This document shows, piece by piece, positions 33,931-57,627 of a DNA stretch of 64,000 bases (position 1 is its first letter; the number at the start of each line of letters is the position of its first letter). The notes under the pieces are model-generated. The model worked only from the letters and a program-made list of their open reading frames with translations, made no database searches and was not told the DNA's origin. The stretch lies in the NCBI GenBank assembly GCA_009829735.1, contig CM020620.1:25948951-26012950 (forward strand), written 5' to 3'. Source of the stretch: Pyropia yezoensis. Its lineage: Eukaryota; Rhodophyta; Bangiophyceae; Bangiales; Bangiaceae. The position numbers were made by a program, and so were the translations under genes.

Positions 33931-34062
33931 CCTCCCTTGCGCAGTGGGTCTACCCACTGAGGAGAGCTATTGTTTGTGAGGGAGAGGGACCCGATGACCC
34001 TTATGGTGGCCGGGTAGTAGTGAGTGTACACTCATCCCCCGTTGGGGCGTTTGCATGATACC

Positions 34063-34758: not shown

Positions 34759-35227
34759 TGTGGCAAAAACCACATGCACACACGGCACCCAAGTTGGGGC
34801 GGTGTGCATGGGCTGCCTCCCGTGTCGGGGGAACCGGAAGAAGTGCAAGTCTCACACACTCTATCCCTGTTTTGGGGCAAACCCCCCACTGACAATCAAG
34901 AGGATGGTGTGTGGTCCAACAGTTTCTTGGTCGGGACGGGGACGCAGGGCCAAGCCCCGCTGTCCCTCCCCTTATCCCCCCAGGGTCCACTCAGAATCCC
35001 GCCACTCAGAATCTCCCACCCCAGCACCTGCCCACCGGGCCACACGAAAATTCAAGACGATAAATGCAGAAAACCCTTAAATCCAAGTTGGATTTACTAC
35101 TAAGCTAACTATCCCAAACTTAGGGAATACGGACCCAAATGCAGGGGAAGGAGCGGATCAGGCTAGTGGCCTGCCACCCCTTGCATGACACGTGTTGCCC
35201 CCCTACCTGGGGGTCAATACTGCCACA
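34759..35227 (-). repeat. Element C 3' LTR (469 bp)
   Basis: Starts TGTGGCAAAAACC and ends ATACTGCCACA. Direct repeat of 43666-44134. The adjoining pyrimidine run marks it as the 3' LTR. Confidence 0.92.
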
Positions 35228-35565: not shown

Positions 35566-37509
35566 ATGGCGACCCCGGGAGTGGAGACGGACTCTCTCGA
35601 CGAGCGTATGGAGGACACCTCCTACGGTAGAGCGCCCGCCGGAACTTCCGGCGGGGGCTCCGCGATCGCTCTGGGGGATGGGACTCCCGCGTCACCCGGC
35701 TTTGGGTTAACGGCGGGGTCTCCCCCGGAGGCGGGACAAGTTGTCCCGCGTGAGGCCTTGGGGCGGTGGTTTTACCCCGCTTGGCCTCTCTATGAGGAGG
35801 GGTTGACTGTTCTTCGCTGTCGCCGACTTGGCGCAGCGATGGGTCGGGTATGGGACCGCCTACGGGAGAAGTATCCCCGTAGGGTCGGGTTCCCTGCCGG
35901 CTTCAGGACGGACCAGTTTGCCTTCCTGGACGATGAGGAGGTTGAGGACGTTCAGCGTGCCAAGGCCATGGTGGACCGCGGGGGAACTATCCCGGGTCCC
36001 GGCGACTTGCCGACCTTTACTTGGGACGCGGTGGCAACTCGCCCCCCGTACCTCCACGAGGCCGATCCGCACACTCATCACTTTGATGTGCGGATGGAGA
36101 AGGACTTCCGGCGAGGTCCCTACTTGGTGACCTCGGCTCAACTTGAGTTTCCTCAACAGTCTGCTGCCAGTAAGAAGCAGTACTATCAGAAGAAGCCCGA
36201 GTGGTGGCCTCAAGTTGAGGTCCCCTACGGGTTCCCGGCATTGTTGCCACGGTTGCTTGACCACTTTGGCTCCGTCATGTTGACGGCTGGCCCTGATCAC
36301 CTGGTGTGGGCCATGTTGGCCACCCAGTGGCTCCTCGAGGTCATGTCGACCTGGGTATCCTGTGTTCAGCGGCGGGGGATGCTCTGGCATCTCCCCCTCC
36401 GGCTTATCCAAGGTTTGGAACAGCTCACCCCTCAGCTAGTTGCTGAGGGGTGCTCATCAGGACAACTCACTCTACTTGAGGAGATGCTCCGTCTTCACAA
36501 GTTTATCGAGTGGGAGAGCATTGAGCACAAATTGCGCCGCCCCACTCGTGGGCCCAAGGACGATGGCGCACTTCGCCAGTTCGTGTGGGTCGCTCGTGAA
36601 CTTCACGACGGCCGTGTGGTCCTACGAGAGGGGTTGGGCATCGGGGTCTACCCGTATGCCCCGGGAGTGGATCGCCACACTGCACCACCCCCGGACAGGC
36701 CCATAGTTATGGCCGTGCCCTCATATGATGACCATATGACTCAACCCACTGCGGGGGCCCCAAGTCGGGGTCGCGGTTACACCCGGGTCCCGCCACCTCG
36801 GCGTGCCCCTCCGCTTCCTCCTGTCCCCTACCAGCCGCACGGGGACATCCCGATTAGCGTGGCCGTTGAGTCGTCCACCCCGGTGTCCCCCAACTTGGGG
36901 GCCACCCTCCTGACGGTATACCCCAAGTTGGTATTACCGCCCACGCCTCTAACCTCAGAGATGATGATCACCACGTTGGTGCGCACCATTTCCTGGTTGG
37001 CCGCGTCGACCGCAACCCTACAGAGTTCCGAGACTTCTCAACTTGAGGAGCGCGTTCGTACTGCAGTGGCGACCGCGAGTTGCGAGTCGGTGGCGGAGTT
37101 TATGACGGCCGAGTTGGCTCGCATTGGGGCTATTATGCCCCAGCCAGCCCCGCTTGGGCGTGGCAAACGTCGCGCGAGCCGGGCATACTCGCCTCCTCGC
37201 CGTCGTCGCCGACACTCGCGGCGCTCTCCCTCCGTGTCGGAAGACGAGTTGTCTTACTCCGTCACGGAGTCCTCGACTCCGTCAGAGTCGGAGTCGGTCC
37301 GGCGTCTGCGTCGCCAGCTTGCGCGCAAGACTAAACAGAAGAGCAGCCGCGGTCGTCGCCACTTGCGCGACCGTGAGGGGCGCGACGGTTCCGACTTGGA
37401 GCCGCCGGCCCCGCCGACTCGTGGGGAGCATTATCGCCGTGGGTCTCGCCGCTCGCCTCCACGTGAGGGCGAGGGCCGTGGGGTTGGAGAGTCTAGCATG
37501 CATGCCTAG
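35566..37509 (+). CDS. Element C antisense ORF (647 residues), function unknown
   Basis: An intact frame antisense to gag-pol, ending 111 bases from the end of the chromodomain frame (tail to tail). The first good ATG is at 35566 (MATPGVETDSLDERMED); the open frame extends upstream to 35380 without an ATG. The centre is globular and rich in Trp and Leu. The segment at about 36358-36510 (V-RRGMLWHLP ... LVAEG ... LLEEMLRLHKFIEW) matches the antisense ORF of element D at about 49672-49820 (VRRQGRLFHLP ... LIAAK ... LEALLAVHDSVNW). A Pro-rich linker, a helical stretch at 36960-37130, and a basic Arg/Ser-rich tail (37150-37500) follow. That tail suggests RNA or chromatin binding, or nuclear targeting; this is inference. 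No known domain is recognised. An accessory retrotransposon protein is the likely class. Confidence 0.75.
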   Translation: MATPGVETDSLDERMEDTSYGRAPAGTSGGGSAIALGDGTPASPGFGLTAGSPPEAGQVVPREALGRWFYPAWPLYEEGLTVLRCRRLGAAMGRVWDRLREKYPRRVGFPAGFRTDQFAFLDDEEVEDVQRAKAMVDRGGTIPGPGDLPTFTWDAVATRPPYLHEADPHTHHFDVRMEKDFRRGPYLVTSAQLEFPQQSAASKKQYYQKKPEWWPQVEVPYGFPALLPRLLDHFGSVMLTAGPDHLVWAMLATQWLLEVMSTWVSCVQRRGMLWHLPLRLIQGLEQLTPQLVAEGCSSGQLTLLEEMLRLHKFIEWESIEHKLRRPTRGPKDDGALRQFVWVARELHDGRVVLREGLGIGVYPYAPGVDRHTAPPPDRPIVMAVPSYDDHMTQPTAGAPSRGRGYTRVPPPRRAPPLPPVPYQPHGDIPISVAVESSTPVSPNLGATLLTVYPKLVLPPTPLTSEMMITTLVRTISWLAASTATLQSSETSQLEERVRTAVATASCESVAEFMTAELARIGAIMPQPAPLGRGKRRASRAYSPPRRRRRHSRRSPSVSEDELSYSVTESSTPSESESVRRLRRQLARKTKQKSSRGRRHLRDREGRDGSDLEPPAPPTRGEHYRRGSRRSPPREGEGRGVGESSMHA

Positions 37510-37620
37510 TTGGCAGCTGCCTTTGTTGTGAGAGCGTGAGGGTTAGGGCTGTAGTGAGAAGCCACTCTGCGTACCACTTCGACTTGAAGCACTCTCTTGG
37601 CACTGTTGCTCGGCCTTCCC

Positions 37621-37929
37621 TCACGTTGAGGGGGGACTGTTAGGGTCAATCTCATTCCGGGCACAGTATGCCCGGACCTTCTCGGCGGGAAGGTCCTCCA
37701 CATACTCCCACGTATCATCCTTGGCTTTGTAGCCGAACCAACGCACCCTCAACATGAGGCGGTTAGTGTCCTCATCCCAGCCGTGGTCGATGAACTTATA
37801 GAACACGTACTCCTGCGAGCCCTGTCTGTCCGCAGGCAGCGAGGGGAGGCGCCACGCTTCCAACGAACGCGCCCAAGCTGGGTCGCCTGCAGGCGGTGGT
37901 GCGAATTTGACCACGTCCTGTCCGTTCAC
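37621..37929 (-). pseudogene. Chromodomain end of element C Pol, split off by a frameshift
   Basis: About 100 residues with a chromodomain-like pattern QEYVFYKFIDH ... VRWFGYKAKDDTWE, homologous to the C-termini of Pol in elements A and B. The upstream part of the correct frame is found at about 37930-37980 (RTDGRRFT, as in element B). A one-base deletion near 37981 therefore cut this domain from the integrase. Chromodomains direct chromovirus integration to particular chromatin. Confidence 0.8.
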
Positions 37930-40900
37930 TGTGCGGACCCTATCGTCACTGTCGATGGTGAAGCGCCGCCCATCAGTACGAGGACCTCGTACGGCCCCTT
38001 CGTCTGGAATACCAACTTACCCCCAGTTGGGGTGTCTGAGTGTACCAGCACCCCGTCACCCTGATCGGGGACATGCTTAGCATTGCGCACCTTTTTGTCC
38101 AAGGTGCGCTTGTAGCGCTTTTGTGCTTTGTCCATCTCAGCCCTGTCTTTAGGGATGAGGTTTTCAAGCCTAGCAGCGAACTCCGCCTTACTCTCAGTAG
38201 GAGTAGGCGTACTGCCACCATCCTGCCTAGTTGGGAGCGGCCGCCGCACGGCAATAGACCGCACGCGACAGGGGGTCACAAAAGCGAGGGGTACTTCCCC
38301 GGTGGATGAGTGAACCTGCGAGTTGTAGGCAGTGGTAAGAATAGAAATGTATTGGTCCCACGTTTTCACGTGCTCACTCACATAGTGGCGCAGCTGCCTA
38401 ACAACAGTTTTGTTGAAGCGCTCCACCTGCCCGTTCGTTTGTGGGTGGTAGGGGGTGGCATAGTTTGCCCACACCCCCAACATATCCAGCACTCCCTGAA
38501 ACAGTACAGACGCAAATTGCGGTCCATTGTCCGATAGTGTACTATCCGGAATGCCATACGCGGCAACCCAGTGATCTAGGAAGGCTGACACGACCGACAT
38601 GGCCGTGATCTCTGCTAGTGGGATCGCTCGCGTAAGTTTCGTGAAGCGGTCACAGATGACCAGGAGGTACTGGTTGCCCTCCTCGGTCACTGGCAGTGGC
38701 CCAAGGATGTCCATCGCCAACGCGGCAAAGGGCTCCTTGGCCGGGAACAATAGCATAGCCGTACTAGGCCGCCGTTCCATCAGACGGTTCTGTGCACAAC
38801 TTGTGCAGGCAGCCACCCAACTGTAGATGTCCACCACCATGGACGGCCAGTAGTACCTGGTCCTCAGGGTCTGGTACAGTTTACTAGACCCCAGGTGTCC
38901 ACCTGTGAGAGCGTTATGCTCCCTCTCAAGGATACTGTCGTTGAGGGATGCGGGGACGACAAGTTGTTCGGTCCCCTGGAATACCCCCCCCCTCATGAGG
39001 AGGCCATCGTCCCCCAGAAAGAACCGCGTCTCCGCCACTGTATCCAGTGTATCCCTCTGCGACTTGCAGAAGGGATGCTCGGCCTGGGCCTTCACCACCT
39101 CGTCCAGGGACAGGGGCAAGTACTTCTTGTTCCCTGGCGCCTCGGGGTTCAACACCTGACCCGAGCGCGTGACTACCCCCACGATGGGGACGTCCTCATC
39201 GACTGGGTTAGTGTCCAGCCCCTCGGTAGGTACCCGAGAGAGGCCGTCGGCAAGGGCATGTTGCCTGCCAGGTCGGTACTCAATGTCAAAGTTGAAGGGT
39301 GCCAGTCGCACCCTCCACCGATTGAGACGAGTGTTCGTACAGTCCGTCTTAAAGATGAACTGCAATGCGCGGTGGTCACAGCGGATGAGGAACTTCTCAC
39401 CCTCTAGGTAGTGACGAAGTGACGTCACCGCCCATACCACTGCGAGTCCTTCCAACTCGGTGACTCCGTAGTTCTTCTCGGCCGAGTTCAGCCCCTTGCT
39501 GAAGTATCCCACCGGCAAGTACTCCTTGTCCGGCTGCTGCTGAAGCAACACACAACCAAGTTGGTCGTAGCTAGCGTCCACATCCAGGATGTAGTGGCCT
39601 CCCAACCTGGGAATAGCGAGGATCGGGGGCTTCAGCAGAAGGTCCCTAAGAGTCTCAAAGGATTCCTGCTCCACCCGACTTGGGGGAGGCAGGTTCTTCG
39701 GTAGCGTCGAGCTCACTAACTCATTCAACGGCTTCGCCACCTTGGCGAAGCCCTTGTTGAAACGTCGGTACACGTTACACATCCCGAGGAAGCTCCTCAT
39801 CTGGGTCTGGGTCCGGGGGTACTGAGCCTTACGGATGGCCCTCAAGTTCTTTTCGTTGACACTGAGACGCCCCGGACGGACAACATGTCCCAAGTATTCC
39901 ACCTCTTGAGTGAAGAGGTGGCACATGCTCGTCTTCAGTGACACACCGGCGTCAGCAAGTAGCTTGAACACCTGGCCAAGATGGCCAATGTGTTCCTCCG
40001 GACTTCGGGAGAGCACAATGATATTGTCTAGGTACACGAGACAGATCTGCCACCGTACTCCGGCCAGAATCATGTCCATTGCGCGCTGGAAAGTTGCCGG
40101 CGCGTTACACAGACCAAACGGTAGACGCTTGCACTGGTAGGTACCACAGTGACAGGTAAAGGTAATTTTATGCCTGTCTTCCGAGGCAATGGGAATTTGC
40201 CAGTACCCTGCGTTACAGTCCAGGGTAGAGAACACGTTTGCCTCCCCCAGAGAGTCCAGACAGTCGTCCATCCTAGGTAGGGGATAACTGTCCTTCACCG
40301 TGCTCTCGTTGAGCTTACGGCAGTCGATACAGAACCGGGGGGTCCCATCAACTTTGGGGACGATAACCACCGGACTCGCCCACTCGGCGTTACTGGCCTG
40401 GATCACATCGAGGGCCTCCATGGGAGCAACTTGCTCCTTAACCAGGGCCCTTGAACGGGGTCCTCCCCCATACGGTTGTTGGCGTATAGGGGGTGCACCA
40501 GGCTTCAACTCGATCCGGTGTTGGGTAGCTCTCATGAGTCCCAATTGACCATCCCACAACTTGTGATATTGGTCAAAGAGGCGTTCAACTTGAACCCTCA
40601 ACCTGGGTTGAACACCCTCCATGTTCACATGGGGCCGAGGAGAGGCGGCCGACTTGGCTTGATGCTTCTCCTTTCCGGACTTCGGGTCGCTACTTGCGCC
40701 CGCGTTGAGGGTGACCGCTACTACCGGTCCCTCATGTTGGTCGATATAGCCGAACTTGGCTCCCGACTTGAAGTACTTGGGCGACGAGCTCAGGTTCATC
40801 ACCTGGATCCTCCACGGGACTCCGGCTTTGGAGTCCATCGTGCCAAGGGCAACATGCACTTGGTGCTTGCGAGCAAGACGGGGGTAAGGGTGCACCAACC

Positions 40901-41603
40901 CGTTCCCCGTATAATCAGTTACAACGTCAACGTGCGCCACCGAGTTGGGGGGCAACGTGACTTTACGGGCTAGACGCAGGGTAGCAGTAAACCCTTCCCT
41001 CACAGAACAAACAGGCTTAGACTGTGAGACTGTCACAGGAGCCACAGACTTTCCCTTACCAAGGATGGGGATAGTCTCCCCATTCATCAACTTGACCCAG
41101 TACTCAAGGCCACAAATCAAAGGCACTTGTGTTACGACATAAGGGGTACCCAGAAGCAGGGGTACCGATATATTCTCAACTACACCATAGGTCACGTCGA
41201 CCTCATGGGTCCCCAACCTAGTTGGTAGGTTCACGGCACCAACGATGGGAAGTACCCCGCCATTGATATCGATCAGATGGTCAGCTTTAGACTTCCAGCG
41301 TTGGAGATTCATCTCATTTGGTAATAGCGACTTGCGTATCAAGGAGGCTCCTGACCCGGTATCAAGTACGATACGGGCAGAACAGGCGCGGCCGGGGGCA
41401 AGTTGCACCCGTCCAGCCACCTGGAAGTTCTCACCCGTCAGCACCGCGATGACCCGACGTGGGTTTACGTTCTTGGGGAGTCCTACCCGAGGTGGGCGGA
41501 CTCCCTTAGGTCGCCGCAGTATCCGGCACGGTTGATTCGTCCTCTTGACCCACTTGGCAGAGGCTGCCGTTGTGAGCTTCGGACGACCAGCTCCAACGGT
41601 CAT
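37926..41603 (-). pseudogene. pol: Element C Pol (protease-RT-RNase H-integrase), RT active site mutated
   Basis: Starts at the ATG at 41603, which overlaps the gag stop as ATGA, and is also reachable by a -1 shift at 41606-41612. Protease DTGSG is at residues 81-85. RT has RFCIDCRKLNESTVKDSYP (CRK where relatives have YRR), and the catalytic motif at 524-527 is YLDN: the second Asp is Asn (codon AAT at 40023-40025), which should abolish polymerisation. RNase H shows LDVDAS, TELEG (Glu-Gly where relatives have Glu-Cys), IRCDHRAL and ALADGLS. Integrase has the zinc region ending CTSCAQN and the triad in MDILGPLP, LSDNGPQF and QVERFNK. The frame goes wrong near 37981, before the chromodomain, and stops at 37926. 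Confidence 0.88.
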
Positions 41604-43546
41604 TCGTTTCCCGCTGACTTGGCGTCCGAATCTGAGGACGAAGGGGAAGACGACGAGTCCGAGGACGACGTGTCTGCCCCCTTCGCCCAGGGCGTGGCGA
41701 CCGCCACCACCGGTCGAGACCCACCCTCGCGGCGTGAACGTACCTCGTTCGTAGCCGACATCTTACTCGCATTCCTAACAAGTTGTTGGATGCGTTTACT
41801 CAACTTGGGGCAATCATATGCCCAGTGTCCATCGGAGTTGCAGTTCCAACACCGATTGTCAGTTCCCGGAGGGGTCTTCCCAACTGGGGAAGACGAAGAG
41901 GTACCCTGGGAAGTTCCCACGGCAGCTACCACCCTCTCCTTGCGGATTCGGCGTGCCTCTCTCAACTCTCTGGCCTGGCGCGCCTCCTCCCGTTCCTTGG
42001 CCAACTCGGCTTGACGCTCCTGGCGTTGCTTCTCCCGCAACTTGCGGTAGGCCTCGCCTCTGCGGTAGGCGAACCTAGCCAACTCGGCCAGGGTCGCCCG
42101 GGCAGTGCTATGCTCCCGGGTCTCCATCCGGACTGACCAATGGAGCCCCTCCACAAACCGACTCTTCACAACAGCTTGTGGATGAAGAAACCCACAAAGA
42201 TTGTTGAGCTTACGGACTCGCTCCGCAAAGGACAACTCGTCCTCCGCCTCTTCCTGATTGGCTTGCGTAAACTCCTCGACTTGAGAAGCCAGCGCCGCTT
42301 CATCAACCATGGATCTCAACAACCAGTTGACGAGCTCCAAATAGGACGTCACCTCCCCAGCGCCTCCACTTGAGGAGCTGGGCATGACGGACATAAGTTC
42401 TGTCCGCAGGTCGCCCTTCGTAAGCTCCTGTAGCATGTAGAAAGCCATGCCTTCACTTATGGCATTGTCGTCACAGGCTTTTGTGGAACGACGTAGGAAC
42501 TCAAAGACACGGAGGGGGGGAGTTCCATCCCACTCCGCTTTGTGCCCAAAAGAGTGAAGTTCATTCTTCTTGGCACGGCCCATAGCTCGGGCCTGGTCAG
42601 GACCATACGCCACCGACTTGTTGTGGAGGGCGTAGGTCTCACAGTCAAAGATCCTCTGGTAGACCGGGTTGGCTACCTGGATCTTGGGTGGCACCTTATG
42701 TTGAGGGAACAGCCGCTGTGGCACTGGGGTAAGTTCACCCTCAGTGCCTGTAGTCCGGCGCGGCGCGCTTGGTGTAGCCGCCGGCGTTGCCGGTGGGAAC
42801 TCCCCCATGAAGGGCGTATGCCCCACCGAGTATGGTGTGGCTCCCTCGTTGGGAGTCACAGGTGTCGCCTCCTGTTTGGGACGACCCGAGATAGGCGTGA
42901 GGGGGGGTCCCCCCTGCGCCTGCGGGCTCGAAAGCCCCGATCCGGTCTGGACATTAAGGCCATCTGGCAAACTCGCCACAATCTGATTCAGAATTGTATT
43001 CGTCATCGTGACCACGAGGTCCGGCAGAGGCTTCCGCAACACATTGGTCGCCTTCCGACGGACAGTTTCCGCCAGGAGTGGATTGACGACTCCAGTTGAG
43101 TCTCGGTCCGCCTCCGGGAGTCCACCTGAGGGGTAACCACGTTCCTCAGGGGTCTCAACCGGGGGCATGGGCGCGAGCCCATCGCCGACCAACGGAGGTC
43201 CGCCGTCCTCCGAGAGCCTAGTTGCCGACGGCTCCAAGCCAAAGTTGGCTCCAACCCGAGTGGAACCCGCGGGGACAGTCCTCACCCCTTGGGACGTTCC
43301 CGTTGAGTGTACCACACGGTGGCCAGACTTCAGCCCACCCACATCAGAAGTGTCACCCGAGTGAACTCCCGACTGAGTCGGGGTGGCCTGTTGCCCACCC
43401 GCACTTCCAGTCCTGCTGGCTTGTGGGACCTCTAGTCCCTCTGCGACCCCAGGTAAACCCACCTGTGTCTCACCAGTATTCAAAGGCACTGAAGTACGTG
43501 CGTCACCCGTGTACTCCCCGGACGACGGGGGGTCCGAGCTAGCCAT
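41600..43546 (-). CDS. gag: Element C Gag
   Basis: Intact Gag of 648 residues from the ATG at 43546 (MASSDPPSSGEYTG); an upstream GTG at 43570 is less likely. A long Pro/Gly/Thr-rich N-terminal third is followed by the Gag core at about 42170-42640 (LRVFEFLRRSTKACDDN, LVNWLLRSMVDE, FAERVRKLNNLCGFLHP), an Arg/Glu-rich helix, and a complete zinc knuckle at about 41810-41850 (C-x2-C-x4-H-x4-C). The tail is a Ser/Asp run ending AGNE. The stop TGA overlaps the pol ATG. It forms the particle that packages element RNA. Confidence 0.9.
   Translation of the reverse strand: MASSDPPSSGEYTGDARTSVPLNTGETQVGLPGVAEGLEVPQASRTGSAGGQQATPTQSGVHSGDTSDVGGLKSGHRVVHSTGTSQGVRTVPAGSTRVGANFGLEPSATRLSEDGGPPLVGDGLAPMPPVETPEERGYPSGGLPEADRDSTGVVNPLLAETVRRKATNVLRKPLPDLVVTMTNTILNQIVASLPDGLNVQTGSGLSSPQAQGGPPLTPISGRPKQEATPVTPNEGATPYSVGHTPFMGEFPPATPAATPSAPRRTTGTEGELTPVPQRLFPQHKVPPKIQVANPVYQRIFDCETYALHNKSVAYGPDQARAMGRAKKNELHSFGHKAEWDGTPPLRVFEFLRRSTKACDDNAISEGMAFYMLQELTKGDLRTELMSVMPSSSSGGAGEVTSYLELVNWLLRSMVDEAALASQVEEFTQANQEEAEDELSFAERVRKLNNLCGFLHPQAVVKSRFVEGLHWSVRMETREHSTARATLAELARFAYRRGEAYRKLREKQRQERQAELAKEREEARQARELREARRIRKERVVAAVGTSQGTSSSSPVGKTPPGTDNRCWNCNSDGHWAYDCPKLSKRIQQLVRNASKMSATNEVRSRREGGSRPVVAVATPWAKGADTSSSDSSSSPSSSDSDAKSAGNE
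41606..41612 (-). promoter_or_regulatory. -1 frameshift heptamer G GGA AAC at the gag/pol junction of element C
   Basis: Minus-strand gag codons GCG GGA AAC GAA TGA. A -1 slip gives GGG AAA CGA ATG ACC, which runs straight into pol. The ATGA overlap also allows stop-restart, so two mechanisms are possible. Confidence 0.75.
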
Positions 43547-43646
43547 GCTGGCTGACGATCCGTATGACACGGTCCAACACCACCGTTCATCTGAGACAGA
43601 GGGTCCCCTACACCCGGGTGCACCCGGAGGTAAAGTTTACCTCTGT

Positions 43647-43663
43647 CCCCTGCTGCTCCACCA
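43647..43663 (-). other. Primer binding site of element C
   Basis: On the minus strand TGGTGGAGCAGCAGGGG, two bases after the 5' LTR; identical to elements A and B. Confidence 0.8.
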
Positions 43664-43665
43664 AA

Positions 43666-44134
43666 TGTGGCAAAAACCACATGCACACACGGCACCCAAG
43701 TTGGGGCGGTGTGCAAGGGCTGCCTCCCGTGTCGGGGGAACCGGAAGAAGTGCAAGTCTCACACACTCTATCCCTGTTGTGGGGCAAACCCCCCACGGAC
43801 AAACAAGAGGATGGTGTGTGGTCCAACAGTTTCTTCGTCGGGACGGGGACGCAGAGCCAAGCCCCACTGTCTCTCCCCTTATCCCCCCAGGGTCCCCTCA
43901 GAATCTCGCCACTCAGAATCTCCCACCCCAGCACCTGCCCACCGGACCACACAAAAATTCAAGACGATAAATGCAGAAAACCCTCAAATCCAAGTTGGAT
44001 TTACTACTAAGCTAACTATCCCAAACTTAGGGAATATGGACCCAAATGCAGGGGGAGGAACGGATCAGGCTAGTGGCCTGCCGCCCCTTGCATGGCACGT
44101 GTTGCCCCCGTACCTGGGGGTCAATACTGCCACA
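43666..44134 (-). repeat. Element C 5' LTR (469 bp)
   Basis: Direct repeat of 34759-35227, beside the primer binding site. Confidence 0.92.
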
Positions 44135-44672
44135 GTCAATCTTTTCCGCTTCAGTGATGTCTGGGATGTGCACGACCACGCTCAGAAAAGTCTTGTTAAA
44201 CGTCCCGACGTCCTTAATCTGTCGCCATGCGTGCAGCTTGTCCCGCGCCGCCTGCGTCTTGTTCAGGGGACTGAAGCGCCGGATGAGTGCAGCACGGAAG
44301 GCGTCCCAGCTCGAAACGTCTGTAGTCTGACTATAGGTATGCCACCAGTTGAACGCTTTTCCATCGAGATAGGTGCAAGCGACACGACACGCTTCGGCGG
44401 GTTCACTCAGCCGGACGTAGGAGTCATTGTGGGAGCACCGCGCTTCAATGGTCCCGGGTTTGCCAGAGATCAGCCCAGGCTTGTTCGGCCCTGCGGGTTC
44501 TGCGTTCTCGCGGGCTGCTGCCGCCTTGGTCTCGGCGAGCTGCTGCTTTGTGTCTTCCAACTCCACTTTGTGTGCCTCGAGCTCGTCATGCATTTGCGTC
44601 ACAAATGTCGTAAGCTGATTCCATGCCTCGACACTGGGGGTGCCGGATGTCGACCCAGAGCTCTATCCGGTA
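44135..44672 (-). pseudogene. Gag fragment of a different LTR element (X), interrupted by element C
   Basis: Minus-strand frame of about 180 codons, open from about 44672 down to the LTR of element C. A coiled-coil-like N-terminal part (MHDELEAHKVELEDTKQQLAE) is followed by a typical retrotransposon Gag domain: ACTYLDGKAFNWWHTY, SSWDAFRAALIRRFSP, ARDKLHAWRQ, GTFNKTFLSVVVHIPD. It differs from the Gag proteins of elements A to D, so X belongs to another lineage. It is cut at EKID by element C. The next few codons of the open frame are LTR sequence and do not belong to it. Confidence 0.8.
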
Positions 44673-45167
44673 ATACGAATCTTATCTCGGGGCCTGGGGC
44701 GTGGTCGGGGCCAGGGACGATCGATGTGCCATGATTGCGCGTTAGAGGGTGGTGATGCGAAGACTCGGGACCTGGCACTCGAACTCCAGGACGAATGGCG
44801 AGAATACATTTCAAATAAGAGCCAACTGCCGTTGCAGTGGCACCAAACGCCGTGCGTTGAGGGCCCCTTGTCCACACAATCCAGCCACTCGCGTCAGCGT
44901 GGCTGTGGCCCAAGGCGGCATGGCGTGACCATGGCGCGCCAGCGCCGTCGCACCAACCAGTGCGCGCCTGTCCCCATAAACGAGAACCAGCCCACAGTCG
45001 CCTGCTGCTTCTCTGCTCCCACCCCTGATATCCCAGACTACAGCCGCCATCTGCTTCTCTGCCCCCACCCCAGGTGTCCCGGCCCACAGCCACCTCTTGC
45101 GTCTCTGCCCCCACCCCGGTTAGCCCGCCCCACTGCCGGGCTGTCCCCGTTCCCTCGTTTTGTTGTC
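44673..45167. other. Intergenic stretch with a 46-bp tandem repeat
   Basis: No recognised gene. At about 45005-45120 a unit beginning CTGCTTCTCTGC is repeated about two and a half times at 46-bp spacing. The left border of the PIF/Harbinger element should lie here or to the left, but I cannot see its terminal repeat. Confidence 0.45.
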
Positions 45168-46721
45168 ATGCCCTCTCCGCGGGCCCCCTCACCTGGCACT
45201 GGGCTAGCGCGCCTTAACGGCGCCGGTGACCCTGGCCGGACGGCGGACATCCCAGCCTCGGCTGGCGGGGCTTCGGCAGTCACAAGCGACCTGCGCCAGA
45301 CAGCCCTGCCGTGGGCGGTCGTTCTGCCAAGAAGGGAAAGTCGGCGAAAAATGTCCATTGGTCATCCGCCGCTACCCGGCAGCTGTTGGACTTGCTGGCT
45401 GAGTCCAGCGAAGTGCGCACAGCTCTCAAGAGTGCAAACAAGAACAAGAAGTTGAGTCACATCTACGCACGGTGGGCAGGGATGCTGAACAACTCCAACT
45501 CATCGCAAGCGTTTGAAGGCCCCAAGGTGAAGAGCAAGATCAAGAAGATGTCCAGCTCATGGCGGGCTGTGCACGAGCAGGTCTCTAAGCTGCGTAATCG
45601 CGGTGCGGCTACAGCTGAAGTCGAGGACAAGAAAAGTACGTAGCGCTCCTGCTGACCCCACAACTTGCTATCCTCGATGCCTTTGTGTCCGTGTGGCTGA
45701 TTTTCTGGGCCACCGTACTGTCTTGTACTGATGGGGTTGGCTGCCAGTCTTTTCCTTTTTTACTCGAGACTGACTCTCCTTTTATGACTGCCGGGCACGT
45801 CATGCTTTGCGCGTCTGATGCTTGTCTCTTCCCGCAGGCGATTTCGAAGACTATGATAAGGGGCACGCCATTTGGGGTACTGCGGCGGAGGTGGAGCGCC
45901 AAATAGTTCTCGAGTCTGGCCTCTCAAGCCATTCCCCCTCACCTGCCTCTCCCCCTCGCGCCGAGGCACGCGGGACCTCTCCATTGGGCGGGTCACAGAA
46001 GGATGGCTCCCTGGCACTGAACCGGGATGGCACCGAGGGGGCTGGCGCTGTGTCCGCTAGCAGTGGCTCCGTGAACAGTGCCGTCATCCTCACAAGCGCC
46101 AATTCTACGCCCCCCTCTCCCTCCCGTCGGGGTACGGCTAGCGGCTCTGCCGCAGAGTGCGCGAGTGGCCGTGCCAATGGCCATCTCCCGCGCAACCCTG
46201 CCTTTCCTCCGTCGGGCGAAGAGCTGTCACCCCTGCCGGCAAAGCCACCTCGGGTGGTCCCCTCTGGGGCTCTAAAGAGCAAGCAGCAGGGAAGTGGAAA
46301 AAAGCTACAAGTTCTGAATCGCGTGGCGGAAGCACTCGCGTGCTCCGAGACGGGCCGCGCGGACCGCCTCCGTGCCATGAACCAGCAGGCCGAGTGGACT
46401 AAAGAGTACCAGACCGGACGCCTCGCCCGAGCTGAGCGCGTGGTGGCTGTACGCGAGAGAGAGGCGGCGCTGGAGGAGCAGAACAACGCGGCGGAACAGC
46501 AGCGCAAGAAGAGTGAGAGCATTACGGCACGCATGCTGCAAATTGCATACTCAAGCAAGTCTGTGGCCGAGGTGCTAGCAATGCAACGCGAGTGGGTCGA
46601 GGGGGGTGGAGAAGACATGACTTCGTCTCGAGAGATGGGTGTTGCGAGGGGGGGAGGGGGTGGAACTGGATCCGGCCATGGGGGTGCTGACGTGGGGGGG
46701 GTGGGGGGGAGTAAGGCCTGA
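45168..46721 (+). pseudogene. PIF/Harbinger-associated Myb/SANT-like protein (two exons, possible frameshift near the N-terminus)
   Basis: DNA-binding partner protein of PIF/Harbinger transposons. The trihelix/Myb-like domain is in exon 1 (about 45350-45610): VHWSSAATRQLLDLLAESSE, YARWAGMLNN, VKSKIKKMSSSWRAVHEQVSKL. Exon 1 ends at 45635 with GTACGT. Exon 2 starts at 45838 after a pyrimidine-rich CTTCCCGCAG. The split codon joins in frame (one base plus two), which supports the 202-bp intron. Exon 2 is Ser/Pro-rich, then has a coiled coil (about 46400-46560, VAVREREAALEEQNNAAEQQRKK) and a Gly-rich end. The Myb frame has no ATG upstream. A good ATG at 45168 lies one base out of frame, suggesting a one-base lesion between about 45230 and 45320, or an unseen small intron. 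It faces the transposase at 46780 tail to tail. Confidence 0.7.
45636..45837 (+). other. Spliceosomal intron of the Myb-like gene (202 bp)
   Basis: GT at 45636 (AAA/GTACGT) and AG at 45836-45837 after TTGTCTCTTCCCGC. Removal keeps the reading frame between the two coding parts, and the intron itself has stops. Confidence 0.7.
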
Positions 46722-46779
46722 CACCGGGTGATAGGCGCACAGCACTTATTTTACTCTTCTCGTAAGGGGCACAGCAAAA

Positions 46780-47165
46780 TCAAAGCAGTGGTTGTCGCCT
46801 CTCTTTACTCGTGATACACTTCCCACAGTTCGTCCGCCTGTTCCTCACGCATTTGCAATGCAAGCTCGTGTGATACACTTCCCACAGTTCGTCCGCCAGT
46901 TCCTCACGCATTTGCAATGCAAGCTCGTAGTCGTCACCCTCAATAGCATCCGCTGCCGTGCTGCCGTTGTCGTCCTCTCGGAAGTTCATTATATCTTCCC
47001 ACCCGTCCCCCTGGTCTAATAAAAAGTTAGCACGCATGCCTCAATAACGTGGGGCACCAACTCAGTCTCGGTTGATATGCCACTGTGGAGCACCCTCCAC
47101 CGACCCTTCAACACCCCGAAAGCGTCCTCCACGACGGCGCGGGGGGAACATAGAAAGCGGTTGAA
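46780..47165 (-). pseudogene. PIF/Harbinger transposase, C-terminal fragment
   Basis: Minus-strand fragment of a DDE transposase (DDE_Tnp_4 type). NRFLCSPRAVVEDAFGVLKGRWRVL holds the last catalytic residue, the Glu coded at 47127-47129. The helix ELVPHVIEACVL follows, the position where the family has LHN. At about 47034 the frame shifts by a small deletion and continues as NFLLDQGDGWEDIMNF ... ALQMREELADELWEVYH. A 59-bp tandem duplication then extends the end. The 5' part is missing because element D2 was inserted exactly at 47166; the rest may lie beyond the right edge of the window. Confidence 0.8.
46811..46928. repeat. 59-bp tandem duplication in the transposase 3' end
   Basis: GTGATACACTTCCCACAG...GCAAGCTC occurs at 46811 and again at 46870 with about two differences. 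It duplicates the last coding residues of the Harbinger transposase. Confidence 0.85.
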
Positions 47166-47528
47166 TGTAGCACAATAGGGATCCGTCGCACGTCCACTCT
47201 CAGGGAACACTCACCAAGGGGGATCGGCACCAACGTCACCGGGAGGCCAAGGTTGCTGTCCTTGGAGCGCAAGCCACGGGACCAAGATGGGAGCCCAAAT
47301 GGGAGGGGTTTGTTGTTCTACCTTGGCCGGCGGTGGAGTCGCCACCGGCCCCCTCGTTATAAACCCTCGGAGACACTACTAACTACCCTTCACCCCAAGA
47401 TGCAAGTCCCTCTGGTCATACGTAACTTATAGATACCGTGACCAGTACGAACTATCAAATTGAAAGTTAAGGGTTAGAAGTAGCCCCCCTGATATTAGGG
47501 TCACAATACGGACAACCATATTGCTACA
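47166..47528 (-). repeat. Element D2 3' LTR (about 363 bp)
   Basis: TGTAGCACAATAGGG ... CATATTGCTACA, with 7-bp inverted ends. Homologous to 30640-31001. The inner edge is inferred from the ends and the polypurine tract. Confidence 0.75.
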
Positions 47529-47542
47529 TATCCCCCCCTTAG
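47529..47542 (-). other. Polypurine tract of element D2
   Basis: On the minus strand CTAAGGGGGGGATA beside the 3' LTR, as in D1. From here to 48115 lies a GC-rich leader without a gene. Confidence 0.65.
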
Positions 47543-48115
47543 ATTCGGCCCGTCCTCGGGTCGAGTTGCATTCGGGGTACCGAATGTAAGTGGGTCACGT
47601 GACCGTTTACCCGTCGGGTGGGGCTTTGCGCCCCGTCGCGACAGACACCCCTTTTCGAGGTTGTCTCAGGGGGGTGCCCCCCTTTGCGTGGTACACACAC
47701 ACGATCCGTTTTCCGGACCGTTAAATTCCCGATGCGGGTTGCTGTTCACGCCCCCCCTTTCCGAGGGGTGGTGCAAGCGGATCCGCCACCAGGTGCCTGG
47801 TGGTAGGGGGGCCCCTCTCGTGTGGACGATTGAGAGGGGGGCGGGGGCTGCCCGCGTTGCGTGGGGGCGGTTGGGGGTGACCCCCCTTGCTTACCCCGTG
47901 TGTGGGTGTGGCCCCGTCCCGCCCAGGTGCCTGGGTGGAGCGCGGTCGTAGCCCCGTGGGGCGCGGGTCGACCCGCGTGCCTGCGGCGCTTCTCGTGGCC
48001 GTTTGTGGTCATAAGCGCGGGTGTCCGCGCTTCCCTGGCTCGTCCCGGTTATCCCACCGTACCGGGTTGTAGCCGTCGACGGCTTGTGGGCGCGGGGGAC
48101 TCCGCACCCGTTATC

Positions 48116-50563
48116 ATGTCCTATCCCCAGGTGCTTGAAGAGGAGGAAGACCTCCTGATCGGGGAGGAGATGGAGGACGACGCGCCTGTCGGTCCCGACG
48201 CCGCGCGTTACGGGGTGAGCTCGTCTGACGACGACGGGCCTGCGGTGTCCGTCCGTCTGTCGGCCGGAGGACTGTCGTCCGTGTGCAGCGGCACGACGGT
48301 GCCGTCGGCCGGAGGTCAACCCGGCGGTCAACCGCGCGTGGCGGCTTCTACCCCCTCTCTGCCGGCTGCCCGGATGGGGCCTGGTGCCGATGCCGGCTCA
48401 CCGCAGGTACCTCAAGATGGTCCGCCCTGCGGCGGAGGTCGCGACCCGCAGCCGACTCCGGCTGGTCAAGGTGGTCCGGGTGTCCGGGCGGTGACTCCTC
48501 GAGGCGGTCCCGACGTTGACGCGGGTGGTGGTGGCGGTGCGACACCCGGTGCGGCGGGTCAAGACGGTGCGGGTGTCCGCACGGCCGGGTCTCCGGCTCC
48601 GGAGGCTGTCCAAGTGCCTTCCCCTTCCGAGGCGGGGGCTACGCCGACGGGTGGTGCCGGCGCCGGTGCCGTACCTGCGGTGCCGCGGGCGTCGAGCGGT
48701 CAAGACGCTCCTTCTCCCATGGCGGTTGACACCGGGAGTTACTCCGGGCGGGCGCCCGCCCTTCTTCTTCCTCCTCGGCCTCGTCCATCTCCGACGTCGG
48801 CCCCTCTGCCGGTGGTGCGTCCCCCGGCGCCCCCGATTCTTCCTGGTCCTGCCCGGGTTGCCCCGTTGGGTGGCGGCGTCGCCGTGGCGGCGGGTCAACC
48901 CGCCATGTCGGTGTCCGACTTGGTGGCTCGGGTTCGAGGCCTCACGGTGCAAGAGTCGATGGAGTCCGATGGGCGTATGCGGGTGGACTTCCACCTGGTG
49001 CATCCCCGTGGAGAATCCTCCCGGCGCGTCAAGGTGGACCCGTGCTGGGAGCGGGAGTTGGTGCGGCTGGTCAACCAGCCGAACGCGGTCCGGGTGGAAC
49101 ACCATTGGATCCTGAGTCAGCCGGACGACCGGCATGCGCAGCTCTGGCGCACCCGGGTGGGACGGGGTGAGGTCTACCTCGACCCCAACTTCGGGGTCTG
49201 CGACTTGATTGCCCCCGCGTTGCCGCGGGAGATTGACTACCCGGCTAGTGCTCGGGGGATTGCGGCGGCGGCGGAGCCGGTTGCGTTTGGGGAGACGGTG
49301 AGCCGTACCGGTCGGTATCCCGACTTTGACTACTACCCGGGGGTACCCCCGTATCTGTCGTTGACGGCTCCCTACCCGCCCATGGCGGGGTTGAGGTCGG
49401 CGTCGAGTTGGCGACGTAACCATGGTGTCATGGCGGATGCGTTCCGCACGGATATAACGTGTGCGTTGCAGACCGGCAACGGTCGTGCTCCGGTATACAC
49501 TCCCGTGCGCCCGCCGCTATGGCAGGAGGGGTGGGAACCCGCCCCTGCTTTCCGGTTTGACACCGGCTCCTGCCTCCGATACTTCAAGAGTGTGTTGGCC
49601 TCCCGGCCGGTCCACCCGTTGCAGGGTACCTTCACCCTTGAGGTTACCCTCGGGCAGGCTTCATCCTTCTTGCTGTCCGTCCGCCGGCAGGGTCGGCTGT
49701 TTCATCTTCCGACGGGTGTCCGTCGGCACATCGCGCAGTTGGGCGTGGATCTGATAGCCGCCAAGACCGGGTTGGCCCGGGAGTTGGAAGCCCTGCTGGC
49801 TGTTCACGATTCCGTGAACTGGGCTGGGGTGTTGGCCCTTCCCCCGTACCGGGACCCGCAGGCTGGGGCTTCCCCCTTGCCTCGTCACTCGTTGCGTGTC
49901 CGGCGTACTCAGCCGGGTGAGCCTAGTTGCCATGGGTGGGCGTCCACCGAGGCCGTTCCTGACCTGGGTATTCCCATGGTTATCCATGACCCTCTTCAGG
50001 TCCTTGCTCCGTGGTTCGGTAACCCGATGCCAGCGGCGGTTGGCCGTCGTCCCCGAGAGTGGGGCTCTGTGGGTGGGGAGCGTGAGGTGTCCCGTCGTCG
50101 GGCGGAGTACCGCCGTGGTTACGGTGGAGCCCCTTCGGTAGGGTCCTACCGGGCCTCGTATCAGGTGCCACCGGCTCCGGTGGTAGCCGTGTCGGCTCCT
50201 GTGGCTCCTCTGGCTGCGCCAGTGTCACCTCCCGCTCCTGTCCTACATGACGGGGGTCCCCGTCTCTGGTATGAAGGCGTTGACGCCCTTGTTACCCGCG
50301 CAATGCGTGGGGGTCTCTCTGTTAGCTGGGGGGATATCCCCCCAGGTGCTGCGCTGGTTGGGTCAGCGCGTTGCTTTGGTGGCGTGCTGGACCGCCTTCA
50401 GAAAGCTCTGGAGGACGTGGAGGCTGGCCGCAGCACCCTCGTCCAGCTATGCACCGAGGTAACTCGGGTGGTCGACCGTCGTGACATTGCCGACCGGTGG
50501 AGCACGGAGGTATACGCGCTTACGCGTGAGTGGCCTCCCTCGGGCAGTGGGTCTACCCACTGA
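48116..50563 (+). CDS. Element D2 antisense ORF (815 residues), function unknown
   Basis: An intact frame antisense to gag-pol, between the 3' LTR and pol. The chosen start is the ATG in MSYPQVLEEEEDLLIGEEMED, because D1 has a matching start (MSDPQV) and C a similar acidic one. The frame is open 85 codons further upstream without an ATG. An acidic N-terminus is followed by a long Pro/Gly/Ala-rich region (to about 48900) and a globular part (about 48900-49990). The latter includes VRRQGRLFHLP ... LEALLAVHDSVNW, shared with the ORF of element C. An Arg/Pro-rich linker and a final helical domain (about 50270-50540, WYEGVDALVTRAMRG, VLDRLQKALEDVEAG, DIADRWSTEVYAL) follow; the last part is also seen in element A. 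I know no matching family. An accessory protein of the retrotransposon is inferred. Confidence 0.78.
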   Translation: MSYPQVLEEEEDLLIGEEMEDDAPVGPDAARYGVSSSDDDGPAVSVRLSAGGLSSVCSGTTVPSAGGQPGGQPRVAASTPSLPAARMGPGADAGSPQVPQDGPPCGGGRDPQPTPAGQGGPGVRAVTPRGGPDVDAGGGGGATPGAAGQDGAGVRTAGSPAPEAVQVPSPSEAGATPTGGAGAGAVPAVPRASSGQDAPSPMAVDTGSYSGRAPALLLPPRPRPSPTSAPLPVVRPPAPPILPGPARVAPLGGGVAVAAGQPAMSVSDLVARVRGLTVQESMESDGRMRVDFHLVHPRGESSRRVKVDPCWERELVRLVNQPNAVRVEHHWILSQPDDRHAQLWRTRVGRGEVYLDPNFGVCDLIAPALPREIDYPASARGIAAAAEPVAFGETVSRTGRYPDFDYYPGVPPYLSLTAPYPPMAGLRSASSWRRNHGVMADAFRTDITCALQTGNGRAPVYTPVRPPLWQEGWEPAPAFRFDTGSCLRYFKSVLASRPVHPLQGTFTLEVTLGQASSFLLSVRRQGRLFHLPTGVRRHIAQLGVDLIAAKTGLARELEALLAVHDSVNWAGVLALPPYRDPQAGASPLPRHSLRVRRTQPGEPSCHGWASTEAVPDLGIPMVIHDPLQVLAPWFGNPMPAAVGRRPREWGSVGGEREVSRRRAEYRRGYGGAPSVGSYRASYQVPPAPVVAVSAPVAPLAAPVSPPAPVLHDGGPRLWYEGVDALVTRAMRGGLSVSWGDIPPGAALVGSARCFGGVLDRLQKALEDVEAGRSTLVQLCTEVTRVVDRRDIADRWSTEVYALTREWPPSGSGSTH

Positions 50564-50877: not shown

Positions 50878-50973
50878 ACTTAGTTACCTAAGCTTAGCTC
50901 TACTTAGTTACCTAAGCTTGGTTCGACTTAGAAACCTAAGTCTGATTTGACTTAGAAACCTAAGTCTGCCGTA
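50878..50973. repeat. Four 24-bp palindromic tandem units (D2)
   Basis: Units start at 50878, 50902, 50926 and 50950, exactly 24 bp apart. Each has ACTTAGNNACCTAAG, an inverted repeat CTTAG/CTAAG around four bases. The loop is TTAC in the first two and AAAC in the last two. A related CTACTTAGTAGG follows at about 50987. They lie between the stops of two converging genes. Confidence 0.85.
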
Positions 50974-51044
50974 ACCATGTCACACCCTACTTAGTAGGTA
51001 TAAGCCTCACCCCCCAACAGCCGAAGTCGGTGTCGGTTGGGTTG

Positions 51045-54000
51045 TTACAGGAGGCGTCGTCGCCTCATGTACGGCATGAGGAGTTGGCGGGGTATATTCG
51101 CCGCCTGTTCCCAGGTGGGTGAGTCGTATCCGACCCACATAACCTTGACGTACCAGGGTCCTGGTATGTCCGGGTCGGTGTGTCCGACCACGCTCTCTAC
51201 TTGGTATGGAATCCCATCCGGTCCCACCGGGTCATCCGACCGGTGGGTTGTAAGAGCTTCATGTAGCAACCCAGCCGGTACCGGCTGAGGCTGTTCCGGC
51301 TTCGGAGCAGGTGTGACATCATTCATACTGATGCGTTGGATCTCCGTATCGGAGTGTAAGATAACAGAGTGGTCATCTCTGTGGAGGATCTGGTACGGTC
51401 CCTTGACCGGTTGCATAAGCTTGTTCCCTCGGAACTTCTGGTGTCTGATATAGACCCAGTCACCTGTTACCAGGGTTGCGTTGCGCACCCGTAGTCGGGC
51501 GTCGAAGTTCTTCTTATACCGAAGTTGTGTTCTGTCAAGGGCACCCTTGAGCTTAGGAATCATCCACGATAGCTTGGCCAACCAAGCTAGGTGGATGCGT
51601 TCGGCGGGTCGGCCCTTCGGTGTATCATACCGAGTGCACCTGCCGGGTGGCAGCGTCAGGTTACCGACGCCTAGTGGCATGACCCACTCCAGCGGAGCAA
51701 TGTTTGTGCTCCGATGTGGCCTGGCATTGTATGCCAGGGTGAGTACGGACAGAAGCCTGTCCCAAGTGTTCGTGTGCTCGGCCACGTAGCACTGTAGCAT
51801 CTTTACGATGGTGCGGTTGAACCGCTCCACCTGCCCGTTGGACTGCGGGTGGTAGTCGGATGCCCGACGTGGTTCGATACCGAACATGCCCAGGACCTTA
51901 GTGCAGAATGCCGACGTAAGGTTTGCTCCGTTATCGGAGAGGAGTTGCTTCATGACTCCGTATGCACTGATCCAGTGGTCAACCACTGCGTTCATGATCG
52001 TGTATGCCGTATCATTCGGGATGGCTGCCGCTCTTGACAGCTTAGTGAAGCGGTCAGACATGACCAGGATATGCCTGTTCCCTTCTTCCGTTATCGGAAG
52101 TGGCCCGAGTATGTCGATAGCGACTTGCTCGTTGGGCCCATCAGGTGGGAATAGCTTCATGGCAGACGCCCGCCTATGTAGACTCATGCGGTTACGTGCA
52201 CAGGGGTGGCATCCCCGTACGTGGTCGACCACGTCGACGGCCATTGCTGGCCAGTAGAAGAACCTTCGCATTGCTGCGAACATACGTGAACCCCCCGGGT
52301 GTCCGGCTGTAGGGTTCTCATGTTCTCGTTTCATGACGGCTTGCCGTAAGGACACGGGAACCACGACTTGATGTCGTCCATCGGCGGGTGCCCGCCGGTA
52401 TATGAGTCCGTCTTCGTTCTCGGAGAAGATGCCGGCCGTACCGGCCAGGAGGTTAGCACGATGACGTCTACAGTCATCGTCGTTGGCCTGTGCCTCGCGG
52501 AAGTCCGCGAGGGTCAATGGGCACGCAAGGTGTGCCATGGTATGGTCAGCCATACCCTGGGTAGCATTACCCACCATGCACACCGGTACTACCGGGATGT
52601 CCTCGTCCACCGGGCGGGTATCCCCGCTCGGGGTGTCGAGCCGAGACAACGCGTCTCCGAGGTGGTGGGTTGACCCAGCCTTATACACCGTGCGGTAGTC
52701 GTGCTCGGCCATCTTCAGCCTCCATCGGGCTAGCCTCCCATGGCTATCGGAAGCCTTGTCACCAAGGTTGAGGAGCCATCGTAGGGGTTTGTGGTCGGAC
52801 CTCACGATGAACCTGGAGCCTTCCAGGTATGGACGGAGCAGTTGCACTGCCCATATAACTCCGAGGCATTCACGCTCGGTGGCACTATAGTTCCGCTCAG
52901 CCGGGTTGAGTGTCCGGCTGAAGTACCCTACCGGACGTAGGTCCGGGATAACGTTATCGGTACCGATCAACGTCTCTCCCTGTAACAGGGTGCATCCCAC
53001 TTGTGTATCACACGCATCGACATCGATGACGAAGGTACCCCGTCTATGCGGTAACGCAAGGACGGGTGGGGCTAGTAGGGCTCGCTTCAGCGACTCGAAT
53101 GCCTCCTCTTCGCTAGGCGAAGGGGGTTGGAGTACCTTGGGTAAGGTACTGCTCGTAAGAACCGTTAACGGTTTAGCTATCCGAGCGAAGTCCTTGACGA
53201 ACCGTCGGTATACATTGCACATTCCCAGGAAGCTCTTGAGCTGCGTCTGGGTGTTAGGGAACCGGGCATCCCGGAGTGCCCGGGTATTGGCTTCGAGTAC
53301 CCCTAGTTTACCAGGGGTTATCTGGTGGCCCAGATATTCGACCGTCTGTTGGAAGAAGGCGCACTTCTTCAGACGCAGGGTTACCCCGGCGTTCCTCAAG
53401 AGGGTGAGTACCTCGTCAACATGTTGTACATGGTCATCCATGTTACGCGAGAAGATGATGACGTCATCGAGGTACACTAGGCAGTTACGCCACTTCACCC
53501 CCGACAGTATGATGTCGATAGCCCGCTGGAATGTAGCGGGGGCGTTGGACAATCCGAAGGGCATCCTTAGGAGCTCGTACACTCCACTGTGACAGACGAA
53601 TGCCGTCTTGGGGATATCCTCGTCCGCCACCGGGATCTGCCAGTATCCGGCGTTGCAGTCGATGGTGGTAAACACCGTAGCCTCCCCCAGGGAGTCGATG
53701 CATTCATCCATCCTTGGTAAAGGGTATGAGTCCTTCTTGGTAACCAAGTTGAGGCGTCGATAATCGATGCAAAACCGAGGGGTTTGATCCTTCTTCGGCA
53801 CAATAACGACTGGGGCACCCCATTCCGACATCGAAGGTCGGATCACCTTAGCTTCACTCATCCTCTTCACTTCTCCATCAACGATCTCTCGTTGCATAGG
53901 TCCCGCTCGGTGCGGTTGTGACCGGGCGGGTCGTGCGCCTGGTACCAGGTCTATACGATGTTGGGTTGCCCCAATGGTCCCCAAGGCCCCGCCTGTCCAC

Positions 54001-55211: not shown

Positions 55212-55219
55212 CCTTCCTC

Positions 55220-56701: not shown

Positions 56702-57627
56702 CCTTGAGGTTACCCTCGGGCAGGCTTCATCCTTCTTGCTGTCCGTCCGCGGCAGGGTCGGCTGTTTCATCTTCCGACGGGTGTCCGTCGGCACATCGCG
56801 CAGTTGGGCGTGGATCTGATAGCCGCCAAGACCGGGTTGGCCCGGGAGTTGGAAGCCCTGCTGGCTGTTCACGATTCCGTGAACTGGGCTGGGGTGTTTG
56901 GCCCTTCCCCCGTACCGGGACCCGCAGGCTGGGGCTTCCCCCTTGCCTCGTCACTCGTTGCGTGTCCGGCGTACTCAGCCGGGTGAGCCTAGTTGCCATG
57001 GGTGGGCGTCCACCGAGGCCGTTCCTGACCTGGGTATTCCATGGTTATCCATGACCCTCTTCAGGTCCTTGCTCCGTGGTTCGGTAACCCGATGCCAGCG
57101 GCGGTTGGCCGTCGTCCCCGAGAGTGGGGCTCTGTGGGTGGGGAGCGTGAGGTGTCCGTCGTCGGGCGGAGTACCGCCGTGGTTACGGTGGAGCCCCTTC
57201 GGTAGGGTCCTACCGGGCCTCGTATCAGGTGCCACCGGCTCCGGTGGTAGCCGTGTCGGCTCCTGTGGCTCCTCTGGCTGCGCCAGTGTCACCTCCCGCT
57301 CCTGTCCTACATGACGGGGGTCCCCGTCTCTGGTATGAAGGCGTTGACGCCCTTGTTACCCGCGCAATGCGTGGGGGTCTCTCTGTTAGCTGGGGGGATA
57401 TCCCCCCAGGTGCTGCGCTGGTTGGGTCAGCGCGTTGCTTTGGTGGCGTGCTGGACCGCCTTCAGAAAGCTCTGGAGGACGTGGAGGCTGGCCGCAGCAC
57501 CCTCGTCCAGCTATGCACCGAGGTAACTCGGGTGGTCGACCGTCGTGACATTGCCGACCGGTGGAGCACGGAGGTATACGCGCTTACGCGTGAGTGGCCT
57601 CCCTCGGGCAGTGGGTCTACCCACTGA
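56702..57627 (+). pseudogene. Second copy of the D2 antisense ORF (3' part), start of the right contig
   Basis: Equals 49636-50563 except for four single-base indels within the first 500 bases (near 56750, 56900, 57040 and 57157). These break the frame; from 57229 on it matches the intact frame. The placement of the errors next to the contig start suggests low consensus quality, not mutation. Confidence 0.8.

Follow-up and report, generated by a model that had tools for sequence, protein, structure and literature searches.

Antisense open reading frames between pol and the 3' LTR of two diverged chromovirus-type elements of Pyropia yezoensis: a candidate accessory protein family

The antisense frames and the elements that carry them

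The window, i.e. the whole stretch of 64,000 nucleotides of Pyropia yezoensis DNA that we analysed, contains four element families (A, B, C and D), and long open reading frames antisense to gag-pol were found in C and D, both of which have reverse transcriptase, RNase H and integrase in the Ty3/gypsy order expected of chromoviruses (Table 1). These antisense frames (aORFs) lie between pol and the 3' LTR, which is the arrangement of the aORF-3R class. The initial annotation had described the frames of elements C and D2 as intact and as lying tail to tail with pol in this slot, and the coordinates and strands were verified in both cases; the opposing minus-strand frames (pol and, in C, the chromodomain) together span 37621-41603 in C and 51045-55211 in D2. 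The gap between the stop codons of aORF-C and the chromodomain frame is 111 bp (37510-37620) and that between the aORF-D2 stop and the end of D2 pol is 481 bp, and the ORF starts lie 338 bp (C) and 587 bp (D2) from the LTR.

Table 1. Coordinates of the antisense frames and of associated features, numbered from the first base of the window
Feature	Position	Strand	Basis or remark
aORF-C, antisense accessory ORF of element C	35566..37509	+	ATG, 647 aa, TAG
Conserved core of aORF-C, residues 95-319	35848..36522	+	BLASTP span
Basic cluster / nuclear-localisation-like stretch of aORF-C, residues 531-560	37156..37245	+	K/R windows, bipartite pattern; function inferred
3' LTR of element C	34759..35227	-	
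Chromodomain frame of element C	37621..37929	-	Pfam Chromo E 2.2e-5, 24.7 bits against a cut-off of 25.1
pol of element C (RT, RNase H, integrase)	37926..41603	-	Pfam
gag frame of element C (zinc knuckle)	41600..43570	-	Pfam zf-CCHC
Primer-binding-site-like sequence of element C	43649..43663	-	common to A (9706-9720) and B (22087-22101)
5' LTR of element C	43666..44134	-	
D1, decayed D-type antisense ORF copy	31591..33960	+	tblastn, translation, alignment to D2; four in-frame stops
3' LTR of element D2, then polypurine-tract-like sequence	47166..47528	-	
aORF-D2, antisense accessory ORF of element D2	48116..50563	+	ATG, 815 aa, TGA
Conserved core of aORF-D2, residues 361-572	49196..49831	+	BLASTP span
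Bipartite basic pattern of aORF-D2, residues 644-662	50045..50101	+	also in P0002 and P0013; function inferred
pol of element D2	51045..55211	-	Pfam; no Chromo match, chromodomain-like C-terminus read by eye
D3 antisense-ORF fragment	56702..57624	+	near-identical duplicate beside 500-N gap

The spacers between pol and the 3' LTR have a GC content of 63-65%, and long frames arise in such DNA by chance. We compared the stop-to-stop frames with 500 dinucleotide shuffles of each region. The frame in C has 715 codons against a shuffle maximum of 350, and that in D has 909 codons against a maximum of 495. In the corresponding stretches of elements B and A the longest frames (293 and 150 codons, respectively) fell below the 95% shuffle level (316 and 177). 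A promoter and terminator scan of 47166-48200 gave no match; it was of the bacterial type, which is inapplicable to a eukaryote.

The Chromo match of element C lies in a separate frame that overlaps pol by 4 bases, and the Chromo matches of A (E 0.00069) and B (E 0.0099) are both under the cut-off. The primer-binding-site-like sequence is 15 bases long, begins TGGTGGAGC, is identical in A, B and C, and adjoins the 5' LTR. An additional C-type LTR lies to the left of C (34063-34595, matching 43666-44198), accompanied by about 63 bp that are found next to the right LTR of C as well; it adjoins the end of the similarity between D1 and D2 (34047). No matching 5-bp target-site duplication was found for C, and the extra LTR, the shared 63 bp and this missing duplication suggest local duplication or recombination. 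Target-site duplications of 5 bp are present for A (CTTCC) and for B (GCCCC). In B, pol is split into several frames, and the spacer between pol and the 3' LTR (28061-29721) is GC-rich, with a repetitive-looking translation and no aORF relative. Several long overlapping ORFs occur on both strands of 15965-20010 (about 68% GC); three of these, as well as the ORF at 10570-11532, had no Pfam match.

Family D is present as more than one copy. D1 has its own 3' LTR at 30640-31001. D2 and D3 belong to two stretches of 6.57 kb each (49636-56201 and 56702-63266), split by a gap of 500 Ns (56202-56701). The stretches differ at 12 places, nine of which are single-base indels, and the differences cluster towards both ends. 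The repeat looks like one element assembled twice, or like unpolished contig ends, and not like a true tandem, and the frameshifts in D3 look like assembly errors. Given so few differences from D2, mostly single-base indels, in repeats that adjoin the N gap, D3 was not used as independent evidence.

Comparison of the C and D antisense proteins

In a single BLASTP comparison, residues 136-319 of the C protein aligned with residues 389-572 of the D2 protein at 25% identity (189 columns, E 3e-9), and hhalign matched a D group of five sequences with a C group of two at a probability of 86% (E 4.8e-6, 185 columns). The C core scored 124 against D2, where the best of 3000 window shuffles that keep local composition reached 70, and 102 against P0004, a D-type database relative, where the shuffle best was 77. 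For the full-length protein the scores against D2, P0003 and P0004 were 124, 126 and 118, compared with shuffle bests of 91, 89 and 93 (500 shuffles each), and the reversed sequence likewise stayed below them. The profile match between the two proteins is therefore significant by hhalign and by the shuffle test. In contrast, hmmsearch with default filters, run on window frames of at least 40 aa, did not link the two types in either direction (the D profile missed C and the C profile missed D, E<=10); with the filters off and one target, the D profile found C (E 5.2e-7 for the domain and 0.0025 for the whole sequence). The two types also remained unbridged in three large-database protein searches, in each of which the 8000 best word-sharing candidates were scored: the C query retrieved P0001 only, and the D2 query and a mixed alignment retrieved D-type proteins only. 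Judging from these comparisons, we take the aORF-C and aORF-D2 proteins to be genuine, though distant, homologues.

The shared motif noticed in the initial annotation is real and lies at 36364-36513 in C and 49679-49822 in D2, but its spelling needed small corrections. It reads V-x-R-[RQ]-G-x-L-x-H-L-P, then L[VI]A, then LE-x-[LM]L-x2-H-x4-W, i.e. it has one x fewer than first written and permits M beside L. The similarity reaches beyond the motif in the BLASTP and hhalign alignments and in the core shuffles. The identity between C and D is 24-25% in the antisense protein and 24% in Gag. The split between C and D is thus similarly deep in the two proteins, which favours a common ancestor that already had the gene.

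The acidic N-termini reported for both proteins were confirmed, with net charges over the first 25 residues of -10 (D2) and -4 (C), and stretches resembling DLL-EEE are present in the D relatives P0003 and P0005. The Pro-rich part was found in both proteins after the core, but a long stretch rich in Pro, Gly, Ser and Ala before the core is confined to D. We searched for basic clusters as 16-residue windows with at least seven K or R, and for the bipartite pattern. Besides the cluster listed in Table 1, aORF-C has a second basic part at residues 575-607, and its basic part is RS-like; the C-type cluster is strong in C and P0001, and neither a basic cluster nor the bipartite pattern was found in 11 other relatives, several of which are partial. 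The order of these parts differs, as the basic part of C follows the Pro-rich stretch and the bipartite pattern of D2 precedes it, so the basic features of C and D2 need not correspond.

In agreement with the first reading of the locus, which had recognised no family for this protein, no Pfam family scored above its cut-off in C or D2, there was no credible sequence match in the PDB, and no convincing Pfam family recurs among the 16 members of the alignment. The Pfam scans recognised no DNA-binding domain. Two candidates were rejected: DUF6214 (best E 0.014, in two of 16 members, the first member's score being under the cut-off) was judged a chance match, and a relation of the antisense protein to Gag reached a best E of 0.058.

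Coding constraint, relatives and distribution

Selection was examined in one nucleotide pair, i.e. D2 and the dead copy D1, and the evidence for purifying selection comes from dN/dS and from indels in multiples of three. All six indels inside the ORF (6, 3, 12, 12, 3 and 90 bases) are multiples of three. The flanking sequence that was aligned has four internal indels (2, 1, 6 and 1 bases), of which one is a multiple of three; a further flank gap of 2 bases, with which the alignment begins, was excluded as an end effect. In the ORF frame dN/dS was 0.60, a value as low as which occurred in none of 1000 permutations (permutation mean 0.94). Leaving out the N-terminal part did not alter the ratio (0.60, with values as low in 2 of 1000 permutations); the N-terminal part by itself gave 0.58 (12 of 1000), and the core region at 49300-49870 gave 0.41 (5 of 1000). 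The remaining two plus-strand frames gave 1.00 and 1.10. One minus-strand frame gave 0.61, yet it has 22 stops in D2, and its low value arises because its third positions are common with those of the ORF frame. Some of the change in D1 has probably accumulated by neutral decay, since this copy is dead, and would have increased dN/dS. A sense-strand ORF at 48398-49423 (minus) was rejected as a real gene, since omega in its own frame is 1.01 and it has two stops in D1; across the same bases the antisense frame has an omega of 0.64 and one stop in D1.

By a codon score trained on gag and pol, the ORF frame came first among the six frames of each of C, D2 and D1. The scores (in bits per codon) were 0.002 for C against -0.077 for the next frame, and -0.121 for D2 against -0.159; those of gag and pol, which are themselves the training set, were higher (0.043-0.152). 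The ORF frames share with gag and pol a high-low-high pattern of GC by codon position.

Three protein searches yielded 14 relatives, one C-type (P0001, 96% identical to the C antisense protein) and thirteen D-type (P0002-P0014), of which six are Pyropia vietnamensis loci, seven come from lgn and one from ena. Conservation across copies and families, as in the aORF-3R class, therefore extends over C, D2 and D1 in the window and these 14 proteins. Against D2, identity was 94% for two of the thirteen D-type relatives and 47-66% for the other 11, which indicates that the frame has been kept in diverged lineages. The relatives are known as protein sequences. Six are annotated as hypothetical proteins of P. 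vietnamensis (Bangiales, Rhodophyta), i.e. MMPV_009242, MMPV_001347, MMPV_008948, MMPV_009449, MMPV_008454 and MMPV_006872 (P0004, P0005, P0006, P0007, P0008 and P0010, in that order), and their membership of the aORF family suggests that they are probably mobile-element genes. No relatives were found in viral contigs with aORF-D2 and the pol of C as queries, or in genome contigs with P0004 as query.

These results bear on whether the frames could be chance products of GC-rich DNA, alike only through a common low-complexity bias. The GC content of the spacers, the length of the shuffled frames and the failure of default hmmsearch to connect C with D are what such an origin would lead one to expect, but it is opposed by BLASTP, hhalign, the shuffles, ORF length, the triplet indels and dN/dS, and the 14 relatives together with the coding pattern of substitution refute it in practice; we give it almost no weight. 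They bear also on a captured host or viral structural gene, e.g. for a capsid or a movement-type protein, that would give the element a particle or cell-to-cell function. P. vietnamensis is the sole organism named among the relatives, which leaves room for such an origin, and a passage of PMC11963269 considers that the Retand antisense genes may derive from an unknown virus. There was, however, no credible Pfam or PDB match, and the basic, acidic and Pro-rich low-complexity parts would be unlike a compact shell protein, so that we consider a captured structural gene very unlikely.

Within the window the aORF is confined to two of the four families. No homologue was found in A or B (best tblastn E 0.085, in B). 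The pol identities among the families are 43-52% (1030 shared columns), and all 500 resamplings of the unrooted four-taxon split of pol paired B with C and A with D; the Gag identity between C and B is 45%, and that between C and D is 24%. The presence of the aORF in C and D runs against the pol split, and therefore two losses, two gains or a transfer are required. The proposal that the accessory protein is ancestral to this group of elements is the simplest reading for C and D, but the gene is not universal, being absent from two of the window's four families.

Proposed role and comparison with known antisense genes

We propose, with a probability of roughly one half, that aORF-C and aORF-D2 descend from one gene and that bangialean chromovirus-type elements encode in it an accessory protein, which would be made from an antisense mRNA and act in the nucleus as a regulator on the LTRs. 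The C and D lineages would have inherited the gene from a shared ancestor, and A and B would have lost it. Transcription of its mRNA may begin within the 3' LTR or within the 338-587 bp that separate the LTR from the ORF, and would proceed towards pol and stop inside or close to the interval that divides the stop codons of the two genes. The protein could enter the nucleus by means of the basic residues behind the core, and the acidic start, conserved core and Pro-rich linker would together equip it to regulate the element, most likely as a transcription cofactor acting at the LTRs of that element, like HBZ of HTLV or GENE23 of maize Grande. We infer the separate antisense transcript, the nuclear protein and the action on LTRs by analogy with antisense genes that occupy this slot elsewhere.

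The same features may be read as those of an integration accessory factor that travels with the pre-integration complex and provides nuclear import or target choice, with no regulation of transcription. Basic clusters are present, C and D2 keep pol, the chromodomain matches of A-C are present though below the cut-off, and a section of PMC7264820 considers that such proteins might help the complex into the nucleus. However, the product of a separate antisense mRNA would have to find the particle, and no relation to Gag was found. Chromodomain integrases, moreover, already supply targeting. We regard an integration factor as unlikely, but as deserving serious consideration. It is also conceivable that antisense transcription itself matters, i.e. 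that RNA from the 3' LTR region pairs with genomic RNA and the resulting dsRNA damps the element, the protein being secondary. The genes are indeed tail to tail, and control of this kind is discussed for these elements in a part of PMC7264820, but an open frame, triplet indels, an omega below 1 and conservation at the protein level would all be unneeded, which makes this a distinctly improbable explanation.

The protein-based regulator that we favour would join a described class, as passages of PMC7264820 and PMC11963269 report accessory genes that run antisense in the interval from pol to the 3' LTR. The suggestion that this is an undescribed accessory protein consequently stands for the protein family in the literature searched, but not for antisense accessory genes in this slot, which were already described and are known also from the fungal element Boty. 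No description of the aORF protein was recognised in the portions of the open-licence PubMed Central literature consulted, and a description elsewhere is possible. The kind of gene is thus known, and the protein family and its setting in red-algal chromoviruses seem new in the literature searched.

The maize Ty3/gypsy element Grande, which is not a chromovirus, has its antisense gene gene23 in the same slot between pol and the 3' LTR as the aORFs. It differs in coming from a land plant and from another element lineage, and it is likened to the aORFs by description. Sections of PMC7264820 and PMC11963269 report that its product is a nuclear protein and that it has its own upstream promoter. In Retand, as described in part of PMC11963269, the antisense ORFs carry TRP28 with predicted DNA binding and are conserved across the lineage. 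Their place and orientation are as in the aORFs; Transposase_28 (PF04195) itself was found in none of the 16 alignment members at E<=1, a search in which the HMMER filters drop most matches above about 0.1, and was absent from the full-length C and D2 proteins at E<=0.1. Boty of Botrytis is a chromovirus, and its gene brtn is an extra antisense gene, as in C and D, the likeness again being one of description. Boty/BcGypsy1 is presented in passages of PMC7264820 and PMC8365987 as a fungal Ty3/gypsy element with this gene. An antisense gene is likewise known from HTLV-1, where HBZ is a bZIP protein of a retrovirus; unlike HBZ, the aORF proteins had no bZIP or other Pfam domain that passed the cut-off. 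According to parts of PMC11963269 and PMC7264820, HBZ has its promoter inside the 3' LTR and is a nuclear protein. For the element genes, the authors of PMC7264820 and PMC11963269 suggest a role in regulation or nuclear entry.

If the proposal is right, the antisense accessory gene, as found in some land-plant and fungal elements and in retroviruses, extends to red-algal chromoviruses and there encodes a protein that belongs to no recognised family. More tentatively, and with rather less than even confidence, we suggest that this is an undescribed, ancient family of rhodophyte chromoviruses whose antisense nuclear regulator may have arisen independently of those of Grande and Retand, Boty and HBZ, such regulators having evolved repeatedly in the gap between pol and the 3' LTR of LTR elements as a general solution to self-control. 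With one conserved core and many copies, the aORF family offers a testable case for what such proteins do, and repeated origins at one site and on one strand would speak for both site and strand being functional and not accidental.
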